Source of the DNA: Devosia sp. YR412
GTDB lineage: Bacteria; Pseudomonadota; Alphaproteobacteria; Rhizobiales; Devosiaceae
Assembly (NCBI RefSeq): GCF_900110945.1
Contig: NZ_FOFL01000001.1
Location: 62,001-126,000, forward strand
Reading direction: 5' to 3'
Length of the DNA stretch: 64,000 bases
Both the position numbers and the translations under genes were made by a program. The notes below the pieces were generated by a model. That model did not search any database. It was not told where the DNA came from and saw nothing but the letters and a program-made list of their open reading frames with translations. Shown here in pieces: positions 1 to 18,545 of the stretch. Position 1 is the stretch's first letter; the number at the start of each line of letters is the position of its first letter.

Positions 1-2536
1 CGCCGTCGATCTCGGCATGGCGCTGCCTGACGAGGATATCGCGGGCCCGCTCGTAGTCGAGGAACTGCCGGGCCGCGGTGGCAAAGCGGCGCAGCCAGAT
101 ATCGCGGCGCTCGGCAATCGCTTCCAGTCCGGCAAATTTCTCCCGGGCGATCGCATCGAGCAGGTCGGCGGCATCGGGGGCCATCACCGAGTGGCCGCTC
201 TCGACAAAGGCGGCAAAGATATCGTGGATGATGGTGCCGCGCTCGCGCGCATCCGGCGCCTCGCCCAAGGGATCGAGTGGGCGGAGCTTCAGCACATGCT
301 TGGCATAGATGTCATAGGGCGAGCGCATCAGCGTCTCGATCTCGGTGACCGACAGCGCCCGTGGCCGTTGCCCGGCCGGAGGATTGGGCATGGGGCTGGG
401 CGCCGATGCGATGGTTTCCACGGCGTCGAGCCGGCGGGCCTGATCGATCCAGGCCACGCCCCTTGCCTGCCACTGATCTATAGCCGCCTTGCCGGCAAAG
501 GCCATCAGCCTTTGCACCAGCCGCGAGGCAATGGCCGGGCTTGATCCGACGCGATCGGCGAAGCTGACGATCACCTCGGCATTCCCCATGCCCTGGGCAA
601 AGTCATGCGCCGCAAGGCCCTGCAGGCGCTCGGGCGGTTGCAGCCCGGCGGCCAGCCGCATGCCGCGGCTGAGCCAGGGGCCAGGATCGGCCGGCTCGGG
701 CCAGATATCCTCGTTAAGGCCGGCGAGGATCAACAGGTCTGGATGCTGCAGCCGCGCCTCGAGCTGGCCCCAGATGGCAATATCCTGGCGGCGCGCCTCG
801 CTGGTGCGCACCTGAAAGCCGGTCATCAGCGCCGCCAGCACGCCGTCGAGCCCGATCGGCGCAAAGCGATGGCCCTCGCCCTGCTGCTGGCTCATCTGCC
901 GCGCCCAGTCGTCCAGCTCGCGCCGGCCGGGCAATTCGGCGCCGTCGGCGACCACGGCAAAGGCGGCGCAAAGGGCGGCGGCAAAGCTGCTGGCGGTGAG
1001 GGTTTTTTCGGCCAGCAAGGCGCGCAGAGGCAGGAGCGCCGTCTCGATGCGCTGGAACAGCGCCTCGATGGCAACTTCGTCATCGGGCTTGAGCCGCTTG
1101 GCCGGATATTTCGTGGTCTCGTCGACATTGGCCCGAAGCAGCAGGCGCAGGCCGGCAAGGCCGGGATTGGGCCGCTGCCCGCGCAGCAGGCCGAGCTCTA
1201 TGGAATCGGTCAGCTCCGCCACCGCAGCACGTTTCAGCCCGAAGCGGCTGGCCTGGTTGCGCAGCAGGGCAATCAAGTCGACCGCCGCGCAATCGCTGCC
1301 GGCCAGCGCCAGGATCTGCCGCAACAACCGGCCGGTGGCCGATTGGAACAGCGGCACGCCGGCCGCATCGTCGACTTCCACCGCGAAGCGACGCAGCTCG
1401 GCGGCGATGCGCCGCGCCAGGTTGCGGTCGGGCGTCACGATGCCGACGCTCTTGCGCTCTTCCAGCGCCTGCCGCGCCGCCAGCGCCACGGCCCGGGCCT
1501 CTTCGTCCTCATTGCGCGCCCGGATCATCGACAGACCCTGGCTCGCCTGGGCTAGGTCGGCGTCGGACAGGCGATGCTCCGCCCAGCGCGCCGTATCCTT
1601 GGTCAGCGCCAGGGCGCGATTGACCAGCGTGGTTCGCGCTCCATCCTTGCCACCCAGTTCCACCACATCGGCCACATCGAGGCCCAGGCTGCGCAACAGC
1701 CGCGCCAGGCCATATTGCGGATGGCCATGCGGGCTATGGGCCGGGTCGAGCAAGGCCGCATGATCGGCAGGCGTCATGGCACAGTCGAGCCCCGGCAGCA
1801 CCACGGCGCCGCGCGGCAGCAGATGCACCGCCTTGAGTAGGCGGGCGGTGGCCGCGATGGAGCCGGTCGAGCCGGCGGCGATCACCGGCCGCTCGCCGAA
1901 CACCAGCGGCGCCGCCAGCGCCTGGCGGTCGAGCCTTTGCCCGCGCAGGGCGGCGATATCGGCCTGCTCGTCCGCCTCCAGCCGCAGCGGCCAATAGGTC
2001 AGCGCAATATCGAGAAAGGCCAGGGTCTGCTGCCAATACTCGCCGATATTGGCCTCGATATCGGGCGCAATGGCGCGGATGTCGGCGGCCTGCTTTTCCT
2101 CGGTCAGCAGGTCGTCGATCAGCGTGCCCAAGGAATCCGCCATCGAGAGGATTTCTCCGGCCGTCGGCGGGCTCGAGAAGGCGCGCTGCCCGGCCGGCGA
2201 ATTGGCCCATTGGTTGACCAGCTCCGACAGCACCAGCCGTCGCTTCAGCCCGCTCGCCGCCGGCAGGGGCGTTGGCGCGTCGAACGGGGGCAGGAAAGGC
2301 TCTTCGTCCTCCACCTCGCCGCCAAAGGTGCGGATATCGGGCAGCAGGCCATGGCCGAGCCGGGAAAATTCTTCGGCCAGCACCAGTTTAGCGCGGCGGG
2401 TCGGCACGACAATGGTGACATCGCTGAGCCAGAATGGCTGGCTCCGGTCGAAGCCCGAGAGCAAAGTACCGTCGCTGACCTTTTCCGCCAGCACACGCAG
2501 GAATTTTGCCTGCGGTGCGATGGAGAAGACGCTCAT
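1..2536 (-). CDS. addB: AddB subunit of AddAB helicase-nuclease (partial, cut by left edge)
   Basis: AddAB processes double-strand DNA ends for RecA loading in the cytoplasm. The frame stays open from the ATG at 2536-2534 to base 1, about 845 codons, so the C-terminus lies outside the window. The N-terminal part begins MSVFSIAPQAKFL and has the degenerate helicase-like region (TIVVPTRRAKLVL) typical of alphaproteobacterial AddB. Near the left edge the RecB-type nuclease domain starts (LSVTEIETLMRSPYDIYAK, then RGTIIHDIF), ending at AEIDG. The start overlaps the stop of the upstream nucleotidyltransferase gene as ATGA, so the two are translationally coupled. addA would be expected just beyond the left edge. 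The family call is firm; the catalytic nuclease residues are mostly outside the window. Confidence 0.93.
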   Translation of the reverse strand, partial: MSVFSIAPQAKFLRVLAEKVSDGTLLSGFDRSQPFWLSDVTIVVPTRRAKLVLAEEFSRLGHGLLPDIRTFGGEVEDEEPFLPPFDAPTPLPAASGLKRRLVLSELVNQWANSPAGQRAFSSPPTAGEILSMADSLGTLIDDLLTEEKQAADIRAIAPDIEANIGEYWQQTLAFLDIALTYWPLRLEADEQADIAALRGQRLDRQALAAPLVFGERPVIAAGSTGSIAATARLLKAVHLLPRGAVVLPGLDCAMTPADHAALLDPAHSPHGHPQYGLARLLRSLGLDVADVVELGGKDGARTTLVNRALALTKDTARWAEHRLSDADLAQASQGLSMIRARNEDEEARAVALAARQALEERKSVGIVTPDRNLARRIAAELRRFAVEVDDAAGVPLFQSATGRLLRQILALAGSDCAAVDLIALLRNQASRFGLKRAAVAELTDSIELGLLRGQRPNPGLAGLRLLLRANVDETTKYPAKRLKPDDEVAIEALFQRIETALLPLRALLAEKTLTASSFAAALCAAFAVVADGAELPGRRELDDWARQMSQQQGEGHRFAPIGLDGVLAALMTGFQVRTSEARRQDIAIWGQLEARLQHPDLLILAGLNEDIWPEPADPGPWLSRGMRLAAGLQPPERLQGLAAHDFAQGMGNAEVIVSFADRVGSSPAIASRLVQRLMAFAGKAAIDQWQARGVAWIDQARRLDAVETIASAPSPMPNPPAGQRPRALSVTEIETLMRSPYDIYAKHVLKLRPLDPLGEAPDARERGTIIHDIFAAFVESGHSVMAPDAADLLDAIAREKFAGLEAIAERRDIWLRRFATAARQFLDYERARDILVRQRHAEIDG

Positions 2537-3186
2537 GGTGTGAGCTGCCGATTGGCTTCGGCCAAACCGGCCGCGTCTTTGATGGCGAACCACGGCGCAT
2601 CGAGCACCACGCCGTAGAGTGTTTCGCGCTCCAGCGCGGCGTCGATCAGCAGGTCGAGCGAAAAAGCGCCGTCCGGCGTACCTGTAAACAGCGACTTACC
2701 CAGTAGCGCCACGCCAGCCCAGATGACGGGCGCGCCATAGTCCCGTGTGACCAGACCCTGGGGCGAGAGGCAGAAATCGTGGCTACGCTGGAACCCCGTG
2801 GCATTGCGGGGATGCACGCAAAGCAGCACGATAGCATCAGGCTGGCTATGTGTGGATAACATGCGCGCCAGTGGCTGGTCGCTGCCGGCCGGCCAGAAGG
2901 CATTGGTCTCCATGACGAAGAAGGGATCGGCATGCAGCATGGGCAGTGCCTGCTTGACGCCACCGCCTGTCCCGAGGGCTTGTTCCTCGCGGCTAACCTT
3001 CACCAGCCCGCCGAAATGCGCCAGCACGCCGTGATCGCCGGGCAGGCCATTGGCGACGAAACGCTTGGCGCCCTCCGCCTTGGCATTGGCCATAACCCGC
3101 TCGACCAGCGGCAGGTCGGCGACCTCGGCAAGGGCCAGGCCATTGCCGGCGGTGAGCAGCATTACATCGGGGAATCGGTCACTCAT
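2533..3186 (-). CDS. Degenerate nucleotidyltransferase (MurU-like fold, signature lost)
   Basis: This 217-residue protein aligns by eye along its whole length with the NTP-transferase family (MurNAc-1-phosphate uridylyltransferase or mannose-1-phosphate guanylyltransferase type). It keeps the GTGGGVKQALPML region and the C-terminal FSLDLLIDAALE region. The N-terminal nucleotide-binding signature, normally AAGxGTRMxPLT with a following Lys, is replaced by TAGNGLALAEVADLP and is about ten residues short. The metal-binding Asp of the usual NSD or NGD motif is replaced (METNAF). It is therefore probably catalytically dead, or a structural or regulatory remnant. In many alphaproteobacteria the gene before addB is an intact nucleotidyltransferase preceded by a sugar kinase and tsaE; those are absent here. 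It overlaps addB by four bases. Confidence 0.7.
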   Translation of the reverse strand: MSDRFPDVMLLTAGNGLALAEVADLPLVERVMANAKAEGAKRFVANGLPGDHGVLAHFGGLVKVSREEQALGTGGGVKQALPMLHADPFFVMETNAFWPAGSDQPLARMLSTHSQPDAIVLLCVHPRNATGFQRSHDFCLSPQGLVTRDYGAPVIWAGVALLGKSLFTGTPDGAFSLDLLIDAALERETLYGVVLDAPWFAIKDAAGLAEANRQLTP

Positions 3187-3224
3187 GGCCGGATAAGACC
3201 GGGGCCTGCGCCCGCTGTCCAGCG

Positions 3225-3521
3225 CTAGTCTTTGGCCGTGTGGCCATCGATATGGCCGAGGCTGCGCTCGGGATCGATCCGGTCGCGCACCAGTTGCTTG
3301 AGCTGCTTGACGTCAGGGAAACCACCATCGCGCTTGCGCTCCCAGATCAACTGGCCATCCAGCGCAATCTCGAAAATTCCCCCGGTGCCGGGGACCAGTG
3401 TCACGGCGCCCATTTCCAAGCTGAAGGTGGACAGCACTTCCTGCGCCATCCAGGCGGAGCGCAGCAGCCAGTTACACTGCGTGCAATAGGTGATGGAGAG
3501 GCTGGGCTTGCTGTTGGCCAA
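3225..3521 (-). CDS. SelT/SelW/SelH (Rdx) family thioredoxin-like protein
   Basis: A 98-residue protein with the Rdx-family layout: an N-terminal beta strand leading to a CxxC redox motif (YCTQCNWLLR), then GTGGIFEIALDG and the FPDVKQLKQLVRD C-terminal helix. Members have a thioredoxin-like fold and are presumed redox proteins; the physiological substrate is not known. It lies three bases downstream of the stop-to-start junction with the cyclic-nucleotide-binding gene and is probably cotranscribed with it. Confidence 0.85.
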   Translation of the reverse strand: MANSKPSLSITYCTQCNWLLRSAWMAQEVLSTFSLEMGAVTLVPGTGGIFEIALDGQLIWERKRDGGFPDVKQLKQLVRDRIDPERSLGHIDGHTAKD

Positions 3522-3523
3522 GA

Positions 3524-3988
3524 TCAGCTCCGCTTGCGCGGATTGCGCACATTGGCCGGATCGACCAGCGTGGCGAGGATGTCGTCGACCATGTCGAGAT
3601 CCTGCCGCTTGCCGGCGGCCTGCTGCTGCAGATCGACCAGATAGGAGGTGGTGTAATACAGCCGCCGCGCCAGCATGGTGGCGATATGCAGGGCAAATTC
3701 CGGCCGGGAATCGAGGAAGGTCAGCGCATCGGGAATTTCATAGGCCGTGACGGCGGAAAGGGCCTTCACCGTCGCCGAATGCGGCATGTCGAGCAGCACG
3801 GCCATTTCGCCGAAGATCGAGCCGGGCTCGTCGACGTGGGAAACCTGAGTGCGTTCGCGGATGACTTCCACTTGGCCTTCGACCAGCACGTAGAGCCGGC
3901 CCAGCCGTTCGCCTTCGGGCAGCATCACCGCGCCGGGCTTGAACGTGGTTTTGGCAAGTCCCGCGCAGTAATCCAGAATGTCGGCCAT
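3524..3988 (-). CDS. Cyclic nucleotide-binding domain protein without DNA-binding domain
   Basis: A 154-residue protein made of one CRP-type cNMP-binding domain (about residues 10-120) and a helical tail of about 35 residues. There is no helix-turn-helix, so it is not a CRP-type transcription factor. The phosphate-binding cassette reads FGEMAVLLDMPHSATV. The Arg that normally contacts the cyclic phosphate (consensus RSATV) is His here, so classical cAMP binding is doubtful. The ligand and partner are unknown. It leads a short leftward pair with the Rdx-family gene. Confidence 0.82.
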   Translation of the reverse strand: MADILDYCAGLAKTTFKPGAVMLPEGERLGRLYVLVEGQVEVIRERTQVSHVDEPGSIFGEMAVLLDMPHSATVKALSAVTAYEIPDALTFLDSRPEFALHIATMLARRLYYTTSYLVDLQQQAAGKRQDLDMVDDILATLVDPANVRNPRKRS

Positions 3989-4081
3989 CGCGCCCTCCCG
4001 ATCGGCTTGGTATAGCGCGGCGCCCGGTCAAAGCAAAGCCGCCCGGGGTGAACCGGGCGGCCAGAGCATGTGGGTAAAAAA

Positions 4082-4729
4082 TTACTGGATCCAGATCACC
4101 GTATTGGTCTGGGCATCGACCAGCGCCGGGCGATCGCCGAAGTAGACATAGCCATAGCGCGAATCCGGAATGGTCGAGACCACGGCGCCATTGGGCAGCA
4201 CCTGGCCGACCACGACGTCACCCGAAAATTCCAGCGGCGCCACCGGATTGCTCAGCGCGAAATCGGCGCTTGTCTGCGGCACGAGATAGCCCGGCGACTG
4301 GACCAGCGCACGGCTCTGCAAGTCAACGATCCAGACGCGGTCATTGGCATAGACGTAGCCGTAATTGGCATCGCCCTCGATCGGGTAGACGGTCACATCG
4401 GCCGGGATCACGAAGCCGACGTCGCTGGCGCCTTCAATATAGATCGGCTCGACCGGATGGGTGCTGACATAGTCGAGCGAGGCCGTCTCGATACCGGCTT
4501 CGGCACCAATGGTGGCGCCGGCAAAGCCGCCGATGACGGCGCCGATCGGGCCGCCGAGCAGACCGCCGACGACAGCGCCGGTGGCGCCGCCGCCCACGCC
4601 GCCAACGGTGGCGCCGGCGGCTTCATTATTGGTCTGGGTTTCGACGCCGACAACCACGTCCTGGGCGAAAGCCGGGACTGCGACGGCGAGCGAGAGTGCG
4701 GCCACGGAGGCCAAAAGGATCTTGTTCAT
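4082..4729 (-). CDS. Secreted DUF1236 protein with glycine-zipper segment
   Basis: This 215-residue protein starts with a clear Sec signal peptide (MNKILLASVAALSLAVAVPAFA, cleavage after AFA). It is followed by a Gly/Ala-rich glycine-zipper stretch (about residues 36-78) that could insert into or lie on a membrane. Two DUF1236 repeats follow: each ends in a YGYVYxNDR or YGYVYFGDR motif with a following xLVDxQT or WIVDLQS strand, and the protein stops right after the second. DUF1236 proteins are common periplasmic or envelope proteins of Rhizobiales with no assigned function. A GGAAC-N16-CGTT element lies about 70 bases upstream, pointing to general-stress control. Confidence 0.85.
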   Translation of the reverse strand: MNKILLASVAALSLAVAVPAFAQDVVVGVETQTNNEAAGATVGGVGGGATGAVVGGLLGGPIGAVIGGFAGATIGAEAGIETASLDYVSTHPVEPIYIEGASDVGFVIPADVTVYPIEGDANYGYVYANDRVWIVDLQSRALVQSPGYLVPQTSADFALSNPVAPLEFSGDVVVGQVLPNGAVVSTIPDSRYGYVYFGDRPALVDAQTNTVIWIQ

Positions 4730-4797
4730 TGTTGTATTCCTTTGCTTGCGGAAGGCGCGGGATAATCTCGCGCCGGAAGTCCGCCCCGTGGCCCATC

Positions 4798-4822
4798 AAC
4801 GGGCGCTCAAGGGCTAGGTTCC
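4798..4822 (-). promoter_or_regulatory. Candidate EcfG (general stress sigma) promoter
   Basis: On the minus strand GGAAC (4822-4818) is followed after 16 bases by CGTT (4801-4798), matching the EcfG-type -35/-10 pattern of alphaproteobacteria (GGAAC-N16/17-CGTT, from memory). It sits about 70 bases upstream of the DUF1236 gene start, giving a plausible leader of about 60 bases. Confidence 0.6.
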
Positions 4823-4841
4823 GCAGCCGAAGGAATTGCCG

Positions 4842-5306
<465 letters not shown>

Positions 5307-5313
5307 GGTAAGA

Positions 5314-5538
5314 TCAGTCCTGTCCGGCGCTCAGCTGCAACACCTCGGCCGAAGCGAGCTTGAGATCATTCTCGCTGACGATGCGCTGGTGGCTCTCGGC
5401 GGTGGACTGCACGCGATACTGGATCACATGGCCCTCATAGGGCAAAAGCGCGACGATCTTGCATTCGCCGGCCTTGCGGCTCGAGGCGCCGCGATTGGGC
5501 AACAGGTCCAGCACCTGGCCGACGGAATATTTGTGCAT
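5314..5538 (-). CDS. Small conserved hypothetical protein upstream of gpx
   Basis: The start is placed at MHKYSVGQ (5538) rather than seven codons upstream, because an AGGAG ribosome site lies seven bases before this ATG. The 74-residue product (MHKYSVGQVLDLLPNRG...YRVQSTAESHQRIVSENDL) resembles short SH3/Tudor-like proteins of Rhizobiales that carry a VRLLPN...QYRIK...ERVV pattern. The function is unknown. It is soluble, without signal or membrane segment, and seven bases separate it from the peroxidase gene. Confidence 0.75.
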   Translation of the reverse strand: MHKYSVGQVLDLLPNRGASSRKAGECKIVALLPYEGHVIQYRVQSTAESHQRIVSENDLKLASAEVLQLSAGQD

Positions 5539-5976
5539 GGGGCGTCTCCTGCTCGACAAGGACCAGACAATCGAGCCCCGAAAGCCCCTTCATACACGCT
5601 TTCCCATAAAAAGGGGGATTATTCGGGAAGACGGGCGTGCCAAGACGCCGGCCAGCCAGGGGGCGTCCGGGGTTGGAAGTCAAGGCGGGTCCCGAGACGG
5701 CTTTCGCCTCCAGGTAAGTTTAGTAGTGAGACGATCACCGTCTCGGAACGTCCGGTTTTATGAACCGCGTCAGGCGGCCGGCATAACCTCGCATACCGAC
5801 GGCCCGGGCGTGAACCCACGGCGACTGGCATAGTCCCGTGCCCGGCCCACTCCCGCCACTGTCGCCTGCAGGCCGCCTGCGCGGGGTGGATGGCAGGAGT
5901 ATGCGCGCAGGTTAAGGGGGCGTGGACAAGGTGGATAGCGTTGCAAGAAAGCAAGACGTTGGTCGCGCGTCCACCT
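5539..5976. other. 438-bp intergenic region with nested inverted repeats
   Basis: No convincing coding sequence. It holds a compact set of inverted repeats: CAGGCGGCC at 5771-5779 with GGCCGCCTG at 5871-5879; inside it GGCGAC at 5820-5825 with GTCGCC at 5861-5866; and CCGAGACGG at 5692-5700 with CCGTCTCGG at 5738-5746. The last arm can also pair locally as GAGAC (5728-5732) with GTCTC (5740-5744), a mutually exclusive choice. The element could be a structured leader of the downstream minus-strand small ORF/gpx pair or an independent RNA. No known RNA family was confidently recognised. Confidence 0.45.
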
Positions 5977-6543
5977 TTAGTCAAACCGCCGAATCCGCGG
6001 CGTGTCCGGTGAAAAAATCTCCGCTGGAGGTGTGGCGCGCACTGGGTCGGGCGGTCCCCGCCGGGCTGCCTGTCCGGCCCTAAAGCCGTCCTCGAAGGCC
6101 GCCTGCCAGCGCCGCTTGGTCATCGTTGCGAGCTTGCTGCGCATGTCCTCGCCGTCATAGGTCTTGGGCGGCGGCGGCAGTTCGGGGCGCAGCCGCTGCA
6201 CCGGCAACTCGCCATATCGCACCCGCCAGCTGCGGCATTTCTTGCCATTGTCCCAGAAACTGTGCTGCGCCTCATAGGCATCGAGCCGCGCCAGCGCCTG
6301 GCCCAATTGCACCAGCAAATCCGCTGCGTCCTCCGCCGCGACCGGCAGTTTCTGACCATCGGCAAAGGGTGCGCAATCGGCAAGCAGGGCTTCGGCACTG
6401 ATGCGAATAGCCGCGCCGACCGTCTGGCCCGACCGCCGGCCGGCCAGCGCCGCCAGATCCTTGTGCAGGGCCGACAGCCGCAACCACAGCGCCTCGTGGC
6501 GCTCGGCCAGGCTATGGGACGTCGTGGGATTGGCCTTGGACAT
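5977..6543 (-). CDS. Hypothetical protein
   Basis: The start is placed at MSKANPTT (6543) because an AGGAG site lies seven bases upstream; an in-frame upstream start has no such site. The 188-residue product is soluble and charged, with a helical N-terminal half (Leu/Ala-rich, about residues 10-90) and a C-terminal tail rich in Pro and Arg. It has a WDNGKKC motif and two further Cys residues but no family I recognise. A weak coiled-coil tendency is seen around residues 15-40. It stands alone between two intergenic regions. Confidence 0.6.
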   Translation of the reverse strand: MSKANPTTSHSLAERHEALWLRLSALHKDLAALAGRRSGQTVGAAIRISAEALLADCAPFADGQKLPVAAEDAADLLVQLGQALARLDAYEAQHSFWDNGKKCRSWRVRYGELPVQRLRPELPPPPKTYDGEDMRSKLATMTKRRWQAAFEDGFRAGQAARRGPPDPVRATPPAEIFSPDTPRIRRFD

Positions 6544-6612
6544 GCGTGTCTCCTCTCGCGGCATGGTCGCAAGAGAATAAGCCCGCCTGGCGGGAGGGGG
6601 ATAAAGCGGCGC

Positions 6613-6870
6613 TTAGTCGACCAGCAGGCCCCATTCCGGGCGCCAGTCGCCATCTTCCACGATAACGGCAATTTTGCTGAGGCCTTCTTCCTGGCGCAGC
6701 GCTTCGGCGGCACGCAGGGCGGCCGGCACAGGCTGGGGGAAATCGGCAATCACTTCCACGGCCGCCACATCGGCCACCATGCGCCCGATGGAGCGGCGCA
6801 CCGTGACGATCACCGCATCATGCGGATGCCGCTCATGGGGCTTCAGGCGCTTGAGTTCTGTCGTGGTCAT
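6613..6870 (-). CDS. Small hypothetical protein
   Basis: The likely start is MTTTELKRLKPHERHPHD (6870), preceded by a GGGGA-like site; longer starts at 6879 and 6900 are possible. The 85-residue product is soluble, mixed alpha/beta, and ends in DGDWRPEWGLLVD. No family is recognised. It is the last host-like leftward gene before the lower-GC retron segment. Confidence 0.55.
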   Translation of the reverse strand: MTTTELKRLKPHERHPHDAVIVTVRRSIGRMVADVAAVEVIADFPQPVPAALRAAEALRQEEGLSKIAVIVEDGDWRPEWGLLVD

Positions 6871-6916
6871 GGCCGTCATCCCCGGGATTATGGTCAACAA
6901 GGGATGAAGGAGTCAG

Positions 6917-6999
6917 GGGTTCCATCACGAGTGGGGGGATTGTGGGTCGAGAGAACGTGGACAGCCAGACGAAAGGGGCGCGGGTTCCATCACAAGTGG
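6917..6999 (+). repeat. 18-bp direct repeat, two copies 65 bp apart
   Basis: The sequence GGGTTCCATCAC followed by G/A AGTGG occurs at 6917-6934 and again at 6982-6999 with one mismatch. It lies at the junction between the host-like leftward genes and the retron region, so it may be a remnant of an insertion boundary, but no matching copy was found on the far side of the retron. Confidence 0.5.
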
Positions 7000-7043
7000 C
7001 GGGGAAAGCCAGTTAGCGCCCAGCACCTAGGATCACATCCGCG

Positions 7044-7077
7044 ATCAAATATCGCCTGAAGTTATATTTCATTTGAT
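7044..7077. promoter_or_regulatory. AT-rich inverted repeat, candidate operator of the retron regulator
   Basis: ATCAAAT (7044-7050) and ATTTGAT (7071-7077) form a perfect seven-base inverted repeat. A second pair, AAATAT (7048-7053) and ATATTT (7064-7069), is nested inside. It is markedly AT-rich against the surroundings and lies just before the candidate structured RNA and the Cro/C1 regulator gene, so autoregulation is plausible. Confidence 0.35.
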
Positions 7078-7104
7078 TAACCCTCTTTAACATGCCAGAA
7101 GGGG

Positions 7105-7335
7105 ATTGTGATGGTTGCTCATCTACTGAACCCGTCTAAGTGTGGGGCCTAGAGCCCTGTGGAAGCTTCGGCTTCCGTCAACCTCGTCGTCTCTCAGGGC
7201 CGTGGCGCGCGCGCCGCACCCGTCCGGGCGCCGGGTGCGGCATATTCGAGGTCAAACGTCGCTGATCAGTTCTCCGATGCCACGGGCGCCAGCAAGTTCG
7301 CTGGTGTATTTGGAGAATAATCGATGAGCATCAAA
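7105..7335 (+). ncRNA. Candidate retron msr-msd RNA
   Basis: The region just upstream of the retron genes has the layout expected of a retron RNA. Complementary ends are GCTCATC (7117-7123) with GATGAGC (7323-7329), extended by TGAT (7109-7112) with ATCA (7330-7333) across a four-base bulge; these would be the a1/a2 repeats. Inside are a UUCG-capped hairpin at 7161-7176, an enclosing GCCCTG/CAGGGC stem (7154-7159 with 7195-7200), a strong ten-pair hairpin at 7213-7241, an ACCTCG/CGAGGT stem (7181-7186 with 7247-7252), and a CCAGC/GCTGG hairpin at 7289-7304. Which stems belong to msr and which to msd, and the branching guanosine, cannot be fixed by eye. Confidence 0.5.
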
Positions 7336-7458
7336 AATCGTCACCAGCGGCGGCGCCGCTGGCCAAACCGATATTGGCTCTGGAAGCTGATATTCGGATG
7401 CGGCCAGGCAGCTGTTTATGTTGTCCGTTTCTGGCTCTGGTGGTCAGACCGGGAATGA
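7324..7458 (+). CDS. 44-residue Trp/Arg-rich small protein in retron locus
   Basis: A short ORF with ATG at 7324, a GGAGAA site about seven bases upstream, and TGA at 7456-7458. The N-terminus is very basic (SIKNRHQRRRRW). It is followed by a hydrophobic, aromatic segment (about residues 17-40, with six Trp) that could be one short membrane helix, and an acidic end. It lies between the candidate msr-msd RNA and the Cro/C1 gene, 35 bases before the latter's start. The composition resembles small membrane-active peptides, but it could also be a leader or part of the RNA. No family is recognised. Confidence 0.4.
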   Translation: MSIKNRHQRRRRWPNRYWLWKLIFGCGQAAVYVVRFWLWWSDRE

Positions 7459-7493
7459 GCGGCGACCTCGAGAAATGCCAGAAAGGAAGTTTT

Positions 7494-7817
7494 ATGAAAG
7501 ATATCAGGCGCCCAATGATCAATGATGCGTTGCGGCTGCTGCGTCTTTATGTCGGTCTGTCGCAGAAGCAACTTTCCGAAAGAATTGAAATTTCTCAGTC
7601 AATGATTTCAGACGTCGAAAAGGGAAACAAATCTGTCTCCATGGAACTTCTAGAGAAATACAGTTCTAACTTAAATATTAGGATGTCAGAGCTTCTTTTT
7701 TTTGCGGAGGAAATTAATGACGGATCGTTTTTGACGCGAGGAAAGCTGATCGTGGCGCCACGTGTTATTGCGCTTCTTGATCGACTAGCGCCAACTGAAA
7801 TATCAGATGCCACGTAG
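7494..7817 (+). CDS. Cro/C1-type HTH regulator of retron locus
   Basis: The start is ATG 7494, with an AAGGAAG site four bases upstream. The 107-residue product has one XRE-type helix-turn-helix near the N-terminus (about residues 7-62: LRLYVGLSQKQLSERIEISQ, then SMISDVEKG) and a C-terminal extension of about 45 residues. It overlaps the reverse-transcriptase start by 11 bases, so the two are translationally coupled. HTH-associated retrons are a described class (type VI in the published scheme, from memory), in which the HTH protein is the accessory component. It may also autoregulate through the inverted repeat at 7044-7077. AT content is higher than in flanking genes, a sign of transfer. 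Confidence 0.8.
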   Translation: MKDIRRPMINDALRLLRLYVGLSQKQLSERIEISQSMISDVEKGNKSVSMELLEKYSSNLNIRMSELLFFAEEINDGSFLTRGKLIVAPRVIALLDRLAPTEISDAT

Positions 7818-8853
7818 AGCTCCGGCAAAGTCGGAACGCTACCAACTTCATCGCTCTCCGTTGGCCCAGCGCCCCACTCAGCGAGACATAGCAAAACTCC
7901 TCGGAGAGACGCGAGACGACCTTCGCCGGCTGGTCAACTATAAAGAAGAATTTGTCCAACGTCGGAAAATTGAGAGCGTTAAGAGCGGAAAGATAAGAGA
8001 ACTGGCTTACCCTGTAGGGAGACTGCGGGGTGTTCATGAGCGGCTAAAATTCCACCTGAACAAAATAAAACAGCCAAGTTATTTATTCAGTCCTCGCCGT
8101 GGATTCGGTCAAAGGGACAATGCTGCCTATCACATTAGGCAGGATCAGTTCTTAACCCTCGATCTAAAGCAGTTCTATCCTTCCACCTCTGGAGCCATCA
8201 TAAAACGCTGGCTCTGGGAAGACCTTGGAATGCCGGAAGATGTGGCTGGCCTGCTTATGCACCTCGTTACGGTGGACGAAAAAGCTTCGCTGGGATCGCC
8301 CGTAACTCCAGTACTATGCAGTCTTATCCATCGGAAAATGTTCGACCGGATTGCGGAGATTTGCGATGCGCGGGGTCTGCGGTACTCAGTCTGGGTTGAC
8401 GACCTGACGATTTCAGGTCGCTTCGTACCTGGGGACGTGTTGATGCAGGTGCGTGACATCATTCGAACCTCTGGGCTTCGCTCTCATAAAATAAAATTTA
8501 GGACGGGCAGCCGTCCAGTTTTCATTACTGGAATTGGGGTAGTTGGACCACATTTGGTGGCGCCCAATACTCTTCATTTGCGCATCCAGGCCGGTTGGGC
8601 TGACTATCATGATGCCGTCACCGACGACGAAAAAGATGCTGCCTGTCAGACCCTCCTCTCATTCTTGGGCACACTTCGGCACATTTCTGGCCGTAAATCC
8701 AAAGCGGGCCAGAAGGTGGCAGATCAGATGAATGCTCTTCGCATGGAACGTGAGGTACGGCAGAAATTCGCTATACAACTGGACAAGGAAAAAGCGGAGC
8801 TTCGCGTCCAGACAAATTACTGCGCCGTCGAAGATTTGCCGTTCGACCTCTAA
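7807..8853 (+). CDS. Retron-type reverse transcriptase
   Basis: A 348-residue stand-alone reverse transcriptase that would synthesise msDNA from its cognate RNA. Visible motifs: the retron-specific NAxxH (NAAYH, residues 105-109); motif A LTLDLKQFYPS with catalytic Asp119; motif B GSPVTPVLCSL (163-173); motif C YSVWVDDLTISG with the Asp pair 198-199; and ITG (240-242) at the place of the retron VTG triplet. The tyrosine of the usual YxDD box is tryptophan (WVDD), which is unusual. Length is normal for retron RTs; there is no intron maturase or integrase domain, arguing against a group II intron or diversity-generating element. Codon use is less GC-rich than in neighbours. An HNH nuclease gene follows after about 40 bases. 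Confidence 0.9.
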   Translation: MPRRAPAKSERYQLHRSPLAQRPTQRDIAKLLGETRDDLRRLVNYKEEFVQRRKIESVKSGKIRELAYPVGRLRGVHERLKFHLNKIKQPSYLFSPRRGFGQRDNAAYHIRQDQFLTLDLKQFYPSTSGAIIKRWLWEDLGMPEDVAGLLMHLVTVDEKASLGSPVTPVLCSLIHRKMFDRIAEICDARGLRYSVWVDDLTISGRFVPGDVLMQVRDIIRTSGLRSHKIKFRTGSRPVFITGIGVVGPHLVAPNTLHLRIQAGWADYHDAVTDDEKDAACQTLLSFLGTLRHISGRKSKAGQKVADQMNALRMEREVRQKFAIQLDKEKAELRVQTNYCAVEDLPFDL

Positions 8854-8892
8854 TAGAGCTCGTATTGTGCGATATCACGTGGAGTCAGAGAA

Positions 8893-9801
8893 TTGACCTT
8901 CGGCGTTTTCATTCATCGTGCCGACTCCATCTACGACGACAGCCCCGCCACCCAATACCAATTCCCCAAGCCCTATCTCGAACGCGCATCGGCCACTGTT
9001 GACGACTGGATCGTCTATTACGAGCCGGTGAAGGTTCGGGGCTCGAAGGGCTATTACGCCATTGCGCGGGTGTCGCAGATCGTGCCGGATCCGACGGCTG
9101 CCAATATGTATCTGGCGCTGATCGAGCCGGGTTCCTATCTCGAATTTCCAAATCCGGTGCCCTTTGATGATGGCATCGGCCTCGTTGAAACCGGCCTGCT
9201 GAACGAACAAGGCCGAATTTCTGGCCGGGCGCAGGCCGCGGTTCGCCCGATTTCGCCCAAAGACTTCGATCGCATCCTGATGCGCGGGCTGGCCGAGGAT
9301 CATCCGCTACTGCCGCGGATCGGCACGGTAGAACCGGCGCTGGACTGGGGCGTGGGCGAGCTGCCGCAGGCGCCTTTTGCTTATGAGCAGGAGCGCGAGC
9401 GGGTCGCTCAGATGACGACGCGGGTGGTGCGGGATCGGGTGTTTCGGCGGGTGGTGCTGCGCGCCTATGGCGAGCGTTGCGCGGTAACCGGGTTGAAGCT
9501 GATCAATGGCGGCGGGCGGGCCGAAGTGGCCGCCGCGCATATCCGGCCGGTGGAGCACAATGGGCCCGACATCATCAACAATGGCGTCGCGCTATCGGGC
9601 ACGGCGCATTGGATGTTTGATCGCGGTCTGATCGGCTTCAGTGATGATCTCGACATCATCATCTCGCGGCAGGTCAATGACCGCGACGGGGTGGAAAGCC
9701 TGATCAACAAGACCGGAAAGCTGATCGGGCCACTGGTGGAGCGAGATCGGCCGCATCCGGCGTTTCTGGCTTGGCATCGGGAGAACTGTTTCAAGGCGTA
9801 A
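8893..9801 (+). CDS. HNH endonuclease with N-terminal PUA/SRA-like domain
   Basis: Start TTG 8893, with GGAG eight bases upstream; 302 residues. The first 140 or so residues (FGVFIHRADSIYDD, DDWIVYYEPVKV, YLALIEPGSYLEF) look like the PUA/SRA/EVE-type base-reading domain found in McrA-like nucleases. The C-terminal 120 residues carry an HNH_2-type nuclease: AYGERCAVTG, AAAHIRPVEHNGPD, then NNGVALSGTAHWMFDRGL. Such two-domain proteins are likely modification-dependent or defence nucleases. It lies 39 bases after the reverse transcriptase on the same strand, yet its GC content is host-like, so it may be an older defence gene beside which the retron landed. Confidence 0.8.
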   Translation: MTFGVFIHRADSIYDDSPATQYQFPKPYLERASATVDDWIVYYEPVKVRGSKGYYAIARVSQIVPDPTAANMYLALIEPGSYLEFPNPVPFDDGIGLVETGLLNEQGRISGRAQAAVRPISPKDFDRILMRGLAEDHPLLPRIGTVEPALDWGVGELPQAPFAYEQERERVAQMTTRVVRDRVFRRVVLRAYGERCAVTGLKLINGGGRAEVAAAHIRPVEHNGPDIINNGVALSGTAHWMFDRGLIGFSDDLDIIISRQVNDRDGVESLINKTGKLIGPLVERDRPHPAFLAWHRENCFKA

Positions 9802-9816
9802 GCTGGTGGGTAAACA

Positions 9817-9934
9817 CACCCCCACCCGACCCCTTCGGGGCCACTCTCCCCACAAGGGGGAGGGATAAGCGGCATCGAGACCGCGGAGCCAGGGCTTCCC
9901 TCCCCCTTGTGGGGAGGGATTGAGGGTGGGGGGT
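9817..9934. repeat. Convergent-gene intergenic repeat, copy A
   Basis: About 118 bp, beginning with CCCCCACCCGACCCCTTCGG and containing CCCCACAAGGGGGAGGGAT; it ends with the reverse-complement arm TTGTGGGGAGGG and GGTGGGG. The two arms can fold into a long imperfect hairpin. The same family recurs at 14914-15042, 22713-22829, 36570-36701 and 62991-63124. This copy lies between the HNH gene (+) and a small minus-strand gene, both of which end toward it. Confidence 0.85.
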
Positions 9935-9967
9935 GTTGTTGGCAGTGTCTTGCCCGCCACCGGGTCA

Positions 9968-10080
9968 CCCCGGCCTTGAGCCGGGGCCCAGCTCGAGATG
10001 GTTGGGCGGCCGCTAGGTGGGTCGGCTGGTTTGGGGGCTGAGCTGAAATCTCAGGATGGATCCCGGCTCAAGGCCGGGAT
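9968..10080. repeat. Pair of REP-like hairpins in opposite orientation
   Basis: CCCCGGC-CTTGA-GCCGGGG at 9968-9986 and ATCCCGGC-TCAAG-GCCGGGAT at 10060-10080 are two short palindromes sharing the core CGGCTCAAGGCCG in opposite orientations, separated by about 75 bp. The arrangement is that of a bacterial interspersed mosaic element. It shares the convergent intergenic region with copy A of the longer repeat. Confidence 0.65.
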
Positions 10081-10100
10081 GACATCGGGGGTGGGGCGGC

Positions 10101-10346
10101 TCAGGTGAACTGAGAGCCGTCGATATAGAGATTGTCACGAACGAGAACGGGCGAAGAGACAGACTTCACCCAGATAGAGTGTCCTTGTCTGACATAGGCA
10201 ATAGCTTCGTCCTCGCTGGACGCATAGACCTTGTTGACCTTGTGGTGCTTAAGGTTGCCGTGCTTAGGGTCACCCAAAACATAGCGCCCGTCCCGGTCAA
10301 CATGGGCTGGCCACTTCTGGCCGCTAAAGAAGCGGTAGATCCGCAC
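10101..10346 (-). CDS. Small hypothetical protein downstream of lepA
   Basis: GTG start at 10346, one base after the lepA stop; 81 residues. The protein is soluble and basic in the middle (HGNLKHHKVNKVY), with no recognised domain; it begins RIYRFFSGQKWPAHVD. Its coding sequence is less GC-rich than lepA. The tight spacing suggests cotranscription with lepA. The GTG has only a weak ribosome site, so expression may depend on coupling. Confidence 0.5.
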   Translation of the reverse strand: MRIYRFFSGQKWPAHVDRDGRYVLGDPKHGNLKHHKVNKVYASSEDEAIAYVRQGHSIWVKSVSSPVLVRDNLYIDGSQFT

Positions 10347-10347
10347 C

Positions 10348-12165
<1,818 letters not shown>

Positions 12166-12267
12166 GGGGCCGCTGATAGCAGAAGCGGGGTGGGTGAGAA
12201 AGATGGTTTCCGCCAAGTTAACCGGCGTGATGCGGTGCCTTTTGGCGCGCTCGCGCGTTGGAGGCAC

Positions 12268-13128
12268 ATGCATAGTCATTTCAAGCTGATCGCCCTCGCC
12301 CCGCTGCTGCTCACCACGCCGGTGCTGGCGCAGGATTTCCTGACACCGCTGCAGGATATGGTGGACCAGTTCACACAAGGCAGCGAGCGGCCGAAACCGC
12401 CACAGAGCACAGCCCCGACACCGGCGGAAATTGCGCCGGTGCCGCGGCCACGGCCACCGGATTTGCCAAGCGCACCGGTGGTGACGCCGCCGGTGGTGGC
12501 GGAGGAGGAAGGGGCGCCGGAGACGCCTGCACCGGAGCCTGAGCCCATTGCGAGTACCGAGCGCGATCGCGTCTACCAGGTCGCCTGTCCGGCGGTAATC
12601 CAGGGGTTGGTCGAGGCAGAAATGGCGCCGCCGCTGAGTGAGGGGATCTGTGGTGAACACTCGCCGCTGGTGGTGACGGCAGTATTGAGCCGGGGACGGA
12701 TGGTGCCGCTGTCCAGTCCGGTGACGACCAATTGCCAGATGGCCTCGGCGCTGCCCGACTGGGTGGCGGATGTCGATGGCTATGCCGAGGCGATGCTGGA
12801 GAGCCGATTGGCTAGCGTTGATACCGGCACCAGCTATATGTGCCGGGCGCGCAATGGCGGTGACGAGGCGTCTATCTCAGAGCACGGCTTTGCCAATGCG
12901 GTGGATGTGACCGGGTTCACGCTGGAGGATGGGCGCAAGATTGGCGTCGAGGCGGATTGGGCCAAGGCCACGGCGCCGGAAGGCCGGTTGCTGCGGCTGG
13001 CGCATGACGCGGCCTGTGGCGGCTTTATGACGGTGCTGGGGCCGGAGGCCAATGCCGAGCACCATGATCACCTGCATCTTGATCTCGGGTGCCATGGCGA
13101 GAGCTGTCAGGCGCGGATTTGCGAGTGA
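12268..13128 (+). CDS. Extensin-family secreted protein
   Basis: The start is ATG 12268, with a GGAGG site three to four bases upstream; 286 residues. Order of parts: signal peptide (residues 1-20, ending VLAQ); a spacer; a Pro-rich low-complexity linker (about residues 45-95); then the extensin-like C-terminal domain with several Cys, the [14 protein letters not shown] motif and the [10 protein letters not shown] metal-site-like motif near the end. The domain belongs to the peptidase-M15-like fold, so a periplasmic peptidoglycan-related role is likely but unproven. It is transcribed divergently from lepA. Confidence 0.87.
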
Positions 13129-13132
13129 AGCC

Positions 13133-13154
13133 ACCCTCGGGCGAGCCCGAGGGT
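13133..13154. terminator. Bidirectional hairpin between convergent genes
   Basis: ACCCTCGGGC (13133-13142) pairs with GCCCGAGGGT (13145-13154), a ten-base perfect stem with a very short loop. It fills the 39-bp gap between the extensin-family gene (+) and a secreted-protein gene (-). No long T-run follows. Confidence 0.6.
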
Positions 13155-13167
13155 GATGTGGGTGCGG

Positions 13168-13665
13168 CTACTGCGCGGGAACGGCAGGCGTAGCGGGCGC
13201 AGCTGGAGTGGCTGCCGCCGCTGGAACCGCTGGCGTTGCGGCGGTGGCTGGGTCAGCCGGTGCCGCGGCAGACTGCGCCTTGTAAATCGCGGTCACGGCG
13301 TCGACGCTGATGCGGTCGGTGCTGCCATCGGTGCAATCCGGCGTGGTTTTTTCGACGTCGGCCTTGACCTGGGCATAGGCTGAGGCGGATGCGGCGGCAT
13401 CCATGCTGAGTGCGGTTTCGAGGCGGGTGCGATCGGCGGCCATGCCTTCCAGCACGTCCGGCTCGACCGACACCGAGCAGAGCTCGATCACCGCCTGGGT
13501 GGCATAAAAGCCGGTCAGCATATTGGCCTGCTTGGGCGAGGTATTGAGCGTCGCGGCCGGGTCGATGACGATGTCGGACGCCGCCGGTGGCGCCACGGCC
13601 TCCTGGGCAATGACGCTGCCGGTGAGAAGAGCCAGGGTGGCCAGTGCGGCGAGGGATCGGATCAT
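13168..13665 (-). CDS. Secreted hypothetical protein with Ala/Pro-rich tail
   Basis: 165 residues with a signal peptide (MIRSLAALATLALLTGSVIA), a central domain of about 95 residues with two Cys (ELCSVSV, TPDCTDG) that could form a disulfide, and a C-terminal tail of about 35 residues made of Ala/Pro/Val repeats (TPAVPAAAATPAAPATPAV). The tail looks like a wall-spanning or flexible linker. No known family. It converges on the extensin-family gene. Confidence 0.7.
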   Translation of the reverse strand: MIRSLAALATLALLTGSVIAQEAVAPPAASDIVIDPAATLNTSPKQANMLTGFYATQAVIELCSVSVEPDVLEGMAADRTRLETALSMDAAASASAYAQVKADVEKTTPDCTDGSTDRISVDAVTAIYKAQSAAAPADPATAATPAVPAAAATPAAPATPAVPAQ

Positions 13666-13724
13666 CGGGAGCTCCTTGAAGGGCGGGATTTTCTATCCCT
13701 CTCTTCAAAGGCCCGATTGTGGCC

Positions 13725-13871
13725 TCAGCACGGCGCGCGGTCGCGCGAGGGGTGATGCGCCGGCAGATCCGCCCAGTCGTGCAGGGACATGCTGTCTGGA
13801 TCGAGCGTGGTCCGCTCGGTGGACAGCATGACCGCGACGAGGCGGTGGAACAGTTTGAGCAGATTTGACAT
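13725..13871 (-). CDS. 48-residue DUF1127-like protein paired with LysR gene
   Basis: The start is ATG 13871, preceded by a strong AAGGAGG site six to seven bases upstream; longer in-frame starts have none. The 48-residue product has an amphipathic basic N-terminus (MSNLLKLFHRLVAV) and a C-terminal SLHDWADLPAHHP motif. It resembles very small DUF1127-type proteins of Rhizobiales. It is divergent from a LysR regulator 104 bases away, the same layout as the DUF1127/LysR pair at 53.7-54.9 kb. Confidence 0.65.
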   Translation of the reverse strand: MSNLLKLFHRLVAVMLSTERTTLDPDSMSLHDWADLPAHHPSRDRAPC

Positions 13872-13974
13872 TTTGTGCCTCCTTTCGGGTCGTATTGACG
13901 GCATGTGCCTGATATGCGCTTGCGCTGCGGGCATCACAATGGACAAGGTTACGCGATCATTGTAGAAAATCTAT

Positions 13975-14889
13975 ATGGCTTCACCCTTTCCCATTCCGCT
14001 CAATGCGTTGCGCGCCATCGAGATCGTCGCCCGACGCGGCGCGCTAGCGCCGGCAGCCGAAGAATTGGGCGTGACCATTGGCGCGGTCAGCCAGCATTTG
14101 CGCCGCGCCGAGGAGCGGTTGGGCATGGAATTGTTCGAGCGCACCTCGGCTGGGCTCCGGCCGACACCGGGCTTGCGGGCCGTGCTGCCGCAACTGACCT
14201 CCGGTTTTGCCGCGTTGCAGGACGGGCTGGCGGCGCTCAAGGGGACCGACGAGGGCGTGCTGAACCTGACGGTGGGCAGCGTCTTTGCCTCGCGTTGGCT
14301 GATCTGGCGCATCAACAAGTTCACCGCGCTCCATCCCGATGTAGAGGTGCGGCTTAATGTGACGGCCACCATGCTCGACCTCAGCCGGCCCGATGTGGAC
14401 TGCGGCATCCGCTATGGCCATGGCAATTGGGCGGGGCTCAATGCCGAGCTGATCGGCGGCACCCAATATCAGCCGGTCTGCGCGCCACCGGTGGCGAAGC
14501 TCCTGAAGCGCCCGGAGGATCTGGCGCAGGTGCCGGTGATCCAGGACGAGACCACCATGTTGAGCTGGGAGGCCTGGCGCGCCGAGGTGGGGCTCGATCC
14601 AGCGCTGAAGCTGGCGGTGGGTCCGACCTATAGCGATGCCTCGCTGGCGGTGGATGCGGCGATTTCCGAACAGGGCGTGCTGATGATGGCTGACATGATG
14701 AGCGCCGATGCGGTGAGCGACGGTCGGCTGGTGCGCCCCTTCGAGCAGCCGGTGGAAGGGCCCCAGGGCTATTACCTGGTGACGGCCAAGGGGCGTCGTG
14801 AAACGCACAAGCTGCGGGCGTTTCGCGAGTGGTTGAAGGTGGAAGTGCCGGCCAGTGTGCACGGCTACGTGCATCAAAGCAGGGGGTAG
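13975..14889 (+). CDS. LysR-family regulator (GcvA-like)
   Basis: A 304-residue LysR-type activator or repressor. The N-terminal winged HTH (about residues 8-66: LNALRAIEIVARRGALAPAA, then EELGVTIGAVSQHLRRAEE) is followed by a substrate-binding domain of the GcvA class (LNLTVGSVFASRWLIWRINK, DVDCGIRYGHGNW, VDAAISEQGVLMM). A probable target is the divergent small DUF1127-like gene. It is followed by copy B of the convergent repeat. The effector is unknown. Confidence 0.9.
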   Translation: MASPFPIPLNALRAIEIVARRGALAPAAEELGVTIGAVSQHLRRAEERLGMELFERTSAGLRPTPGLRAVLPQLTSGFAALQDGLAALKGTDEGVLNLTVGSVFASRWLIWRINKFTALHPDVEVRLNVTATMLDLSRPDVDCGIRYGHGNWAGLNAELIGGTQYQPVCAPPVAKLLKRPEDLAQVPVIQDETTMLSWEAWRAEVGLDPALKLAVGPTYSDASLAVDAAISEQGVLMMADMMSADAVSDGRLVRPFEQPVEGPQGYYLVTAKGRRETHKLRAFREWLKVEVPASVHGYVHQSRG

Positions 14890-14913
14890 CAGGCTGCGGC
14901 TTGTACGGCGCGT

Positions 14914-15042
14914 ACCCCCCCACCCGACCCCCTTTGGGGCCACCCTCCCTACAAGGGGGAGGGATAAGAAAGATCGAGGCCGCTGAACTCACAATTCCCT
15001 CCCCTGAATGGGGAGGGTGGCCCGGAGGGGTCGGGTGGGGTG
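14914..15042. repeat. Convergent-gene intergenic repeat, copy B
   Basis: About 129 bp with the family arms: CCCCCCCACCCGACCCCC at the left, CTACAAGGGGGAGGGAT, then CCCCTGAATGGGGAGGGTGG and GGGGTCGGGTGGGG at the right. It lies between the LysR gene (+) and the repeat-protein gene (-), which converge on it. Confidence 0.85.
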
Positions 15043-15107
15043 ATGGCTGGGCACCGTGCCGAAACAAAGAAAGGACCCAGCCGGGAGGAGACGGCTGGTC
15101 CTGGGCG

Positions 15108-17273: not shown

Positions 17274-17316
17274 TGTCCGCTCCTTGAAACAAGTGGAGCG
17301 TCAACGCGGAAAATAG

Positions 17317-17347
17317 ACTTCGGGTGCAACACAGTCGCACCCGAAGT
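17317..17347 (-). terminator. Probable terminator of the aldo/keto reductase gene
   Basis: An eleven-base perfect stem, ACTTCGGGTGC (17317-17327) with GCACCCGAAGT (17337-17347) and a nine-base loop. Read leftward it is followed by CTATTTTCC. It lies about 75 bases beyond the reductase stop and about 45 bases before the repeat-protein start, so it could also be a leader structure of the latter. Confidence 0.55.
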
Positions 17348-17421
17348 TAACGTCAGGCTAGGGGATTTTGCCAAAATGCAGGCATAATACGGAATACTAC
17401 TTAGAACGCCGTTTTGTTTCT

Positions 17422-18462: not shown

Positions 18463-18545
18463 GGTCGTCTCCCGAGAATTTGCGATTTGGCCCCGGACCA
18501 AATCTCGATTGGTCCCAGTGGCCGGGCAATGGTATGAGCGGGCCG

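Follow-up and report, generated by a model that had tools for sequence, protein, structure and literature searches.

A type VI (HTH) retron in Devosia with WVDD in motif C, a small peptide gene and a proposed peptide-effector mechanism

The window analysed here is a stretch of 64,000 nucleotides from Devosia sp. YR412 (contig NZ_FOFL01000001.1, positions 62,001 to 126,000 of the forward strand), and the system in question is a retron locus that runs from a structured RNA to the reverse transcriptase (RT) gene at 7108-8853, with an operator-like repeat from 7049. An element of this sort probably serves defence against phages, and the HTH class to which it belongs has been little studied. The segment was first given as 7044-8853, its start lying just 5' of that repeat. 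An earlier note on this DNA described two genes, an RT gene and a Cro/C1 helix-turn-helix (HTH) gene overlapping its start by 11 bases. Both open reading frames (ORFs) are present and overlap at 7807-7817 as described, but the two-gene description is incomplete, since at least one further gene belongs to the system: the small ORF at 7324-7458 and the RNA elements that flank it are parts overlooked by that first description. The features of the locus are as follows.

7049-7067, + strand: operator-like inverted repeat ATATCGCCTGAAGTTATAT, imperfect in the window; relatives have TATCGCY-N3-RGCGATA or TTCGCT-N3-AGCGAA
7073-7078, + strand: -35-like TTGATT, read by eye; several relatives have TTGAC with a TATNNT box 17 bases on, and the -10 box of the window is weak
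7108-7120, + strand: a1 arm, close to where the transcript is expected to start; forms the closing helix in the consensus fold
7126-7242, + strand: msr-msd-like RNA with the conserved CTGAACCCGTC, short hairpins at 7144-7158 and 7161-7176 and a GC-rich msd-like hairpin at 7212-7242
7245-7263, + strand: a2 strand, predicted to pair with a1 or, more strongly, with the element after the small ORF stop
7272-7315, + strand: hairpin whose 3' arm contains GGAG, the small ORF's ribosome-binding site
7324-7458, + strand: small peptide ORF of 44 codons, MSIKNRHQRRRRWPNRYWLWKLIFGCGQAAVYVVRFWLWWSDRE, with an Arg-rich N-terminus and a hydrophobic helix; proposed effector
7458-7472, + strand: anti-a2 element, directly after the small ORF stop and complementary to a2
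7494-7817, + strand: Cro/C1 HTH protein, 107 residues (PADLOC HTH_VI 1.5e-27; Pfam HTH_3 8.1e-12)
7807-8853, + strand: type VI retron RT with WVDD in motif C, 348 residues (PADLOC RT_VI 2.4e-55; RT tree)

The reverse transcriptase and the tryptophan of motif C

The RT was assigned by profile and by phylogeny. Its best PADLOC profile is RT_VI, with RT_III-A as runner-up (6.9e-33), and the adjoining gene matches HTH_VI. The closest solved structures by sequence are the retron Ec86 RTs (6.4e-9), and a retron RT (Ec86) was also the top match in a fold search (1.8e-12) with an AlphaFold model that was built from five sequences, is of low confidence (pLDDT 63.5) and was used only for this fold match, being too weak to judge the tryptophan discussed below. 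In a maximum-likelihood tree of 48 RTs, a branch with support of 100/100 separates 30 type VI RTs, among them that of the window, from 18 RTs of other retron types. The tree omits five of 53 rows that were short or split (L010, L042, L043, L049 and L087; loci are designated by L and a number), and 12 more loci were not used in it: L001 and L031 (both the window), L021 (= L003), L015, L017, L022, L034-L036, L045, L047 and L084. Two of the omitted rows, L042 and L049, are neighbouring sites of one genome with adjacent matches to different halves of the RT profile, perhaps a split type VI RT gene. The HTH gene adjoins the RT gene in all 30 type VI loci. The reading of the earlier note as an HTH-associated, type VI retron thus agrees with both profiles and tree; a best match to group II intron RTs, which it had named as grounds for abandoning that reading, was not what the search returned.

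The base composition of the segment stands out, with a G+C fraction of 0.47-0.53 in the 500-base windows over 7251-9000 against about 0.60-0.71 in nearly all others of 1-20000. The lower G+C had been noticed at the outset and taken as a sign of transfer, and the distribution of the relatives agrees with this. Close relatives occur in Stappia, Devosia ureilytica, Rhizobium tropici and Shinella, and three relatives, in Rhizobium rhizogenes, Agrobacterium vitis and Leisingera, are plasmid-borne; the nearest RT by tree path is that of Stappia, which is closer than the RT of D. ureilytica. Within the genus there is one close relative (genome G458, 68% identity), identical over 3954 bases to the D. 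ureilytica locus, while a more distant one, L083, with 40% identity, comes from a genome of the same order. The host genome of the window is 3.83 Mb.

The motifs read in the earlier note are all present: NAAYH from residue 105, VWVDD at 195 and ITG at 240, with motif A, DLKQFYPS, at 119. Motif C therefore departs from the canonical YxDD box, its first residue, tyrosine, being replaced by tryptophan. The note had treated this as a peculiarity of the gene, proposing a survey of relatives. WVDD is found in all nine members of one clade (support 100/99), while every other RT in the tree has tyrosine, 21 of them of type VI and 18 of other retron types. The residue before this position also distinguishes the two groups, being V, C, I or L in the 30 type VI RTs and R in the 18 others. 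Viral contigs, in which a search with a single protein found nothing, yielded 44 related loci when scanned with an alignment, one of the patterns of the scan allowing Y or W; three of the loci have tryptophan (L140, L141 and L144) and 41 tyrosine. The tryptophan is thus a fixed trait of a clade, and within the sample it arose, on this comparison, once and was then retained, so that the WVDD clade would offer a natural collection of RTs with a single, retained replacement at the first YxDD position.

An RT with such a change may no longer make DNA, or may make it in an unusual manner, the system then acting through RNA and protein only. The retention of tyrosine throughout the 39 other RTs of the tree would speak for this, yet none of the catalytic residues D119, D198 and D199 of motifs A and C varies among the five aligned members with tryptophan, nor do the cores of motifs B and E, and the msr-msd-like RNA is preserved with covariation. 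Such a change of function is therefore considered very improbable, and the tryptophan is taken as a fixed, presumably active variant of the first YxDD residue. Altered fidelity or priming, which the earlier note had raised as a consequence of the tryptophan, is shown by nothing in the analysis.

The small peptide gene, the HTH protein and its operator

The small ORF was found by aligning the DNA upstream of the HTH gene, in which a conserved RNA block is followed by a 44-codon ORF, shortened to 41 codons in L024 and L025. For six loci of the same length, with L024 and L025 left out of the count, the pooled proportion of synonymous differences (pS) was 0.47 and that of nonsynonymous differences (pN) 0.27 in frame, compared with 0.31-0.32 for both in the other two frames; judged by this difference the small ORF is under purifying selection. 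In the ten loci with tryptophan (W loci) so compared, the peptide carries a net charge of +3 to +9 in its first 24 residues and has one hydrophobic stretch (Kyte-Doolittle 1.2-2.2 over 19 residues).

To follow the peptide across type VI retrons a filter was used that required an ATG start, 30-75 codons, a stop 15-75 bases before the HTH gene, a net charge of +3 or more over the first 24 residues and a hydrophobic window after these. An ORF passing the filter is present in 24 of the 30 type VI loci and in 2.4% of shuffles, although this set was not blind, many ORFs having been inspected before the filter was fixed. In the six that fail the automatic test (L005, L011, L025, L054, L057 and L086) the ORF is readable by hand with another start, spacing or length. 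The viral contigs, which were fetched later, formed a blind set for the filter except for the P2-like relatives of L057 and L058, and here 29 of 40 loci satisfy it, as do 15 of 18 clusters, against 1.5% of shuffles. The 11 failures include L140, which has no upstream DNA; the four loci left uncounted from the 44 are L120, L145 and L146, which have no HTH hit, and L131, at a contig edge. For seven example peptides there was no Pfam match better than 0.07 and no PADLOC match up to an E-value of 1. A tblastn search of plasmids with the peptide alone found none, though three plasmids carry relatives, the search being too insensitive to show absence. The peptide, whose basic start and hydrophobic end are kept across these loci, is read as a likely effector acting at the membrane.

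The HTH protein would seem to have a regulatory role. A strict GCY-N3-RGC palindrome lies 276-321 bases before the small ORF in 18 of the 30 type VI loci (1.0% in shuffles); the scanned stretch of L057 and L058 contains no operator palindrome. The protein is probably an autoregulator, for which the inverted repeat would be the natural operator. The roles could also be reversed, with the HTH protein as effector or antitoxin, in keeping with the name of the type, and the peptide as an accessory that binds the RNA, or the multicopy single-stranded DNA (msDNA), through its Arg-rich end and so tethers the complex to the membrane. Arginine-rich N-termini occur in RNA-binding peptides, the HTH gene is next to the RT gene in every type VI locus of the tree, and the HTH_VI match (residues 8-97) exceeds the HTH_3 domain (residues 13-67). 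The family of the HTH protein, however, is that of ordinary Cro/C1 regulators, most loci offer it an inverted repeat upstream for binding, and in one locus its frame is interrupted. This reversal of roles is viewed as rather doubtful, though it is the most credible of the alternatives to a peptide effector under HTH control.

The retron-like RNA and the pairing of its a2 strand

Between the operator-like repeat and the small ORF the order of elements is a1, CTGA, two short hairpins, a GC-rich hairpin and a2, which is the layout of an msr-msd RNA. Over eight W loci, 96.2% of the cells of the predicted structure are paired and nine of 40 pairs show changes on both sides, above all 500 shuffles, with a structure that was derived from the same alignment as the count. 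A covariance model, R1, built from these eight loci finds L083 (1.6e-4), L144 (3.5e-33) and L141 (7.8e-22), none of which was used in building it. This stretch of the window has no Rfam match. A conserved, structured upstream RNA is, by covariation, present in the W clade, and homology to the RNA of other type VI retrons is seen only weakly; the lack of a conserved RNA upstream in homologues, which the earlier note would have counted against a retron, is not what the close homologues show. Pairing of a1 with a2 is predicted by the consensus fold, and L025 can form it with other letters.

The a2 strand has a second potential partner in the anti-a2 element. Counted over nine W loci with arms that were set by eye, 71 of 72 cells are paired in arm 1 of the a2/post-stop helix, with changes on both sides in five of eight pairs, and 57 of 63 in arm 2, which has no such changes and whose failures are all in L083. 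Duplex energies in eight W loci range from -21.2 to -30.4 for a2 with the post-stop element against -11.0 to -17.0 with the 5' region (-14.3 against -11.1 in L083), where the 5' value is that of the best duplex, which in several loci is other than a1.

Specificity of this pairing was examined by exchanging partners between loci. In a blind test on 15 viral cluster representatives the mean was 25.6 for own partners and 20.4 for exchanged ones (p 5e-5, the floor of 20,000 permutations), and it was 24.7 against 20.2 for the 13 of these without tryptophan (p 1e-4). For 17 other loci the values were 27.5 and 23.8 (p 0.0014); this set omits 13 of the 30 type VI loci, namely seven W members including the window, L007, L053 (near L051), L009, L011, L057 and L058. 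Against shuffles of each locus's own post-stop stretch p was 5e-5 in both sets. Individual loci differ widely, the z-score of the long-range pairing being 6.8 in L026 and 4.9 in L055, with none in L008, L111 and L113. An earlier scan for duplexes, made over the entire flanks, yielded long and unspecific ones and does not serve as a test here, and the 23 viral contigs containing a 16-base a2 word are, by estimate, about as many as chance expects. On these comparisons the a2/post-stop helix covaries among the W members and, as a mean across unrelated type VI loci, exceeds the permutation and shuffle controls, if not in every locus.

The ribosome-binding site of the small ORF is itself placed in a hairpin whose arms on average fit their own partners better than those of other loci (own arms 25.4, exchanged arms 20.7, p 5e-5, again the floor of 20,000 permutations, 11 W loci), the signal being absent in L025 (rank 11 of 11) and L141 (6 of 11). 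A different pairing, in which a 5' element would meet the small ORF's start codon, appeared in one consensus fold and was dropped in favour of the a1/a2 pairing contained in R1. It failed a blind test across loci, where its mean was 24.3 for own partners and 22.1 for exchanged ones, with the window at rank 18 of 37, and an explicit count was weak (54 of 72 cells paired, two of eight pairs changed on both sides).

This arrangement would also suit a leader peptide, in which the act of translation, and not its product, controls the folding of the retron RNA and the expression of HTH protein and RT. Because the stop codon directly abuts the anti-a2 element in the W clade, a terminating ribosome would cover the element, and the hairpin around the ribosome-binding site would fit such control too. 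Against this, the basic start and hydrophobic end are kept across loci whose letters differ greatly, as shown by the loci and clusters that pass the filter (24 of 30 and 15 of 18), and pN lies below pS, both of which point to a product that matters. A mere leader is considered improbable, and the peptide is taken below as the effector.

Proposed mechanism, known systems and neighbouring genes

The gene families, the single change of tyrosine to tryptophan, the conserved RNA, the peptide ORF, the hairpin at its ribosome-binding site, the a2 pairing and the upstream repeat each emerge from comparison among sequences. Taken together they suggest that the locus is a complete type VI (HTH) retron of the WVDD clade, organised as one operon of operator and promoter, msr-msd RNA, peptide, HTH protein and RT, for which a peptide-effector mechanism is proposed; we put the probability of this reading at roughly 0.55. 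The HTH protein would bind the inverted repeat and so set the dose of the operon, and the peptide would be an effector acting at the membrane. Folding of the transcript would allow little peptide to be made while RT and RNA are in order. The RT with its msDNA may sense phage, a role taken from other retrons by analogy, and when these are upset the peptide would be freed and the cell stopped, as in abortive infection.

A number of results weigh against this reading. The helix of the W-member peptides is only moderately hydrophobic on the Kyte-Doolittle scale in the ten loci compared. For the RNA, quite apart from the shared alignment of structure and count mentioned above, one of five measures points the opposite way (13 further pair types against 16.8), the a1 arm has no changes on both sides, although 91.5 and 95.5% of the cells in its two parts are paired, and the RNA of the window folded alone is unremarkable (z -1.4). 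R1 finds only one of the 21 other type VI loci, L007 of another clade, and that weakly (0.004); at a threshold of 0.01 it finds nothing in the remaining 20 loci with tyrosine, nor in 22 of the 24 viral loci searched out of the 44, L144 and L141 being the only hits there. For the long-range pairing, the exchange test on the 17 loci falls to 25.6 against 23.6 (p 0.04) when the four best-looking are removed to leave 13, and z is below 0.2 in nine of 32 loci, including L025, in which part of the arm lies outside the tested stretch. A first blind scan of 27 loci ranked the pairing first in L025, L055 and L026 and 2-9 of 37 in the other W loci, with L004 and L083 reaching their rank through a different duplex, and it placed most loci without tryptophan low. 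No operator of the strict form is present in 12 of the 30 loci, including the window. Finally, in the Shinella relative L005 the HTH gene (2667-2990) has an in-frame stop after 37 codons while the small ORF, the upstream RNA and the RT frame are open or conserved, which does not fit an HTH protein that serves as an indispensable antitoxin.

A bolder and tentative extension, which we would sooner doubt than accept, is that type VI retrons as a whole are retrons fused to a self-closing toxin message, in which a2 has two partners and, throughout the type, the hidden peptide rather than the HTH protein acts as effector. Pairing of a2 with a1 would give the retron RNA for the RT, and pairing with anti-a2 would close the toxin message. 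RT activity, RNA processing or ribosomes at the stop would choose between the partners, so that an infection in which RT, msDNA or translation is lost might be sensed by the element and answered with synthesis of the toxin.

Type VI retrons were reportedly defined by Mestre et al. in 2020. The locus resembles them in its RT and HTH families, gene order and overlap, and differs in the WVDD of motif C and in the small-peptide gene and anti-a2 element described here. The type I toxin mRNAs hok and aapA1 encode a small membrane peptide, hold its ribosome-binding site in a hairpin and pair the two sides of the mRNA over a long range. The likeness lies in a small hydrophobic peptide whose ribosome-binding site and ORF are bracketed by a predicted, coevolving pairing, whereas here the closing strand is part of the retron RNA. 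Ec48-type retrons carry membrane effectors, and an effector of membrane type is proposed here as well, although Ec48 has another RT type and a different, longer effector.

HTH-RT pairs with a short ORF before an HTH gene that overlaps the RT gene are described for Shewanella phage MuM16-1, Klebsiella phage ST147-VIM1phi7.1, Escherichia virus P2_2H1 and Burkholderia phage KS5 in PMC8541194, which names such short ORFs in phages and, citing Mestre 2020, ascribes 'small auxiliary proteins' to type VI retrons. Three of these phage loci were read in this analysis (KS5 as L056, P2_2H1 as L057 and ST147 as L058), and they differ from the window in having tyrosine in motif C. The existence of the peptide gene is accordingly not claimed as new; its breadth and the RNA architecture were not met in the literature searched. 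That search, a limited one with the founding paper outside it, gave no description of the breadth of the peptide, the anti-a2 element or WVDD. For type VI retrons that literature settles neither effector nor RNA, and a conserved peptide gene that is tied by predicted RNA pairing to a retron strand would provide a concrete effector candidate and a testable mechanism. If this is correct, the acting gene would be overlooked by defence annotations in which only RT and HTH protein are listed.

Downstream of the RT, the gene at 8893-9801 encodes an HNH protein that resembles a family of restriction endonucleases binding phosphorothioated DNA (NCBIfam NF045808, 1.6e-29, below the cut-off). It was considered as a part of the system and rejected. 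Among 74 other genomes of the genus, 16 were found to carry the gene, in nine of these loci with the next segment of the window alongside, and a retron of this clade was found in one of the 74 (G458), some 460 kb from the HNH gene; the latter is a chromosomal gene of the genus, separate from the retron. No clean empty site came to light: conservation of the flanks begins again at about 8891, and the stretch at 6619-6930 matches only in L093, in another arrangement.

Other genes lie beside type VI retrons elsewhere. A TIR-domain gene, possibly an added effector, directly follows two tyrosine type VI retrons on plasmids (3462-4421 in L051 and 3399-4364 in L059). On a Sphingobium plasmid a PemK/MazF toxin gene is found upstream of the type VI retron (L050, 954-1403), and on an Acetobacter plasmid the retron is flanked by two IS110 transposase genes (L054, 1-775 and 4525-5547).

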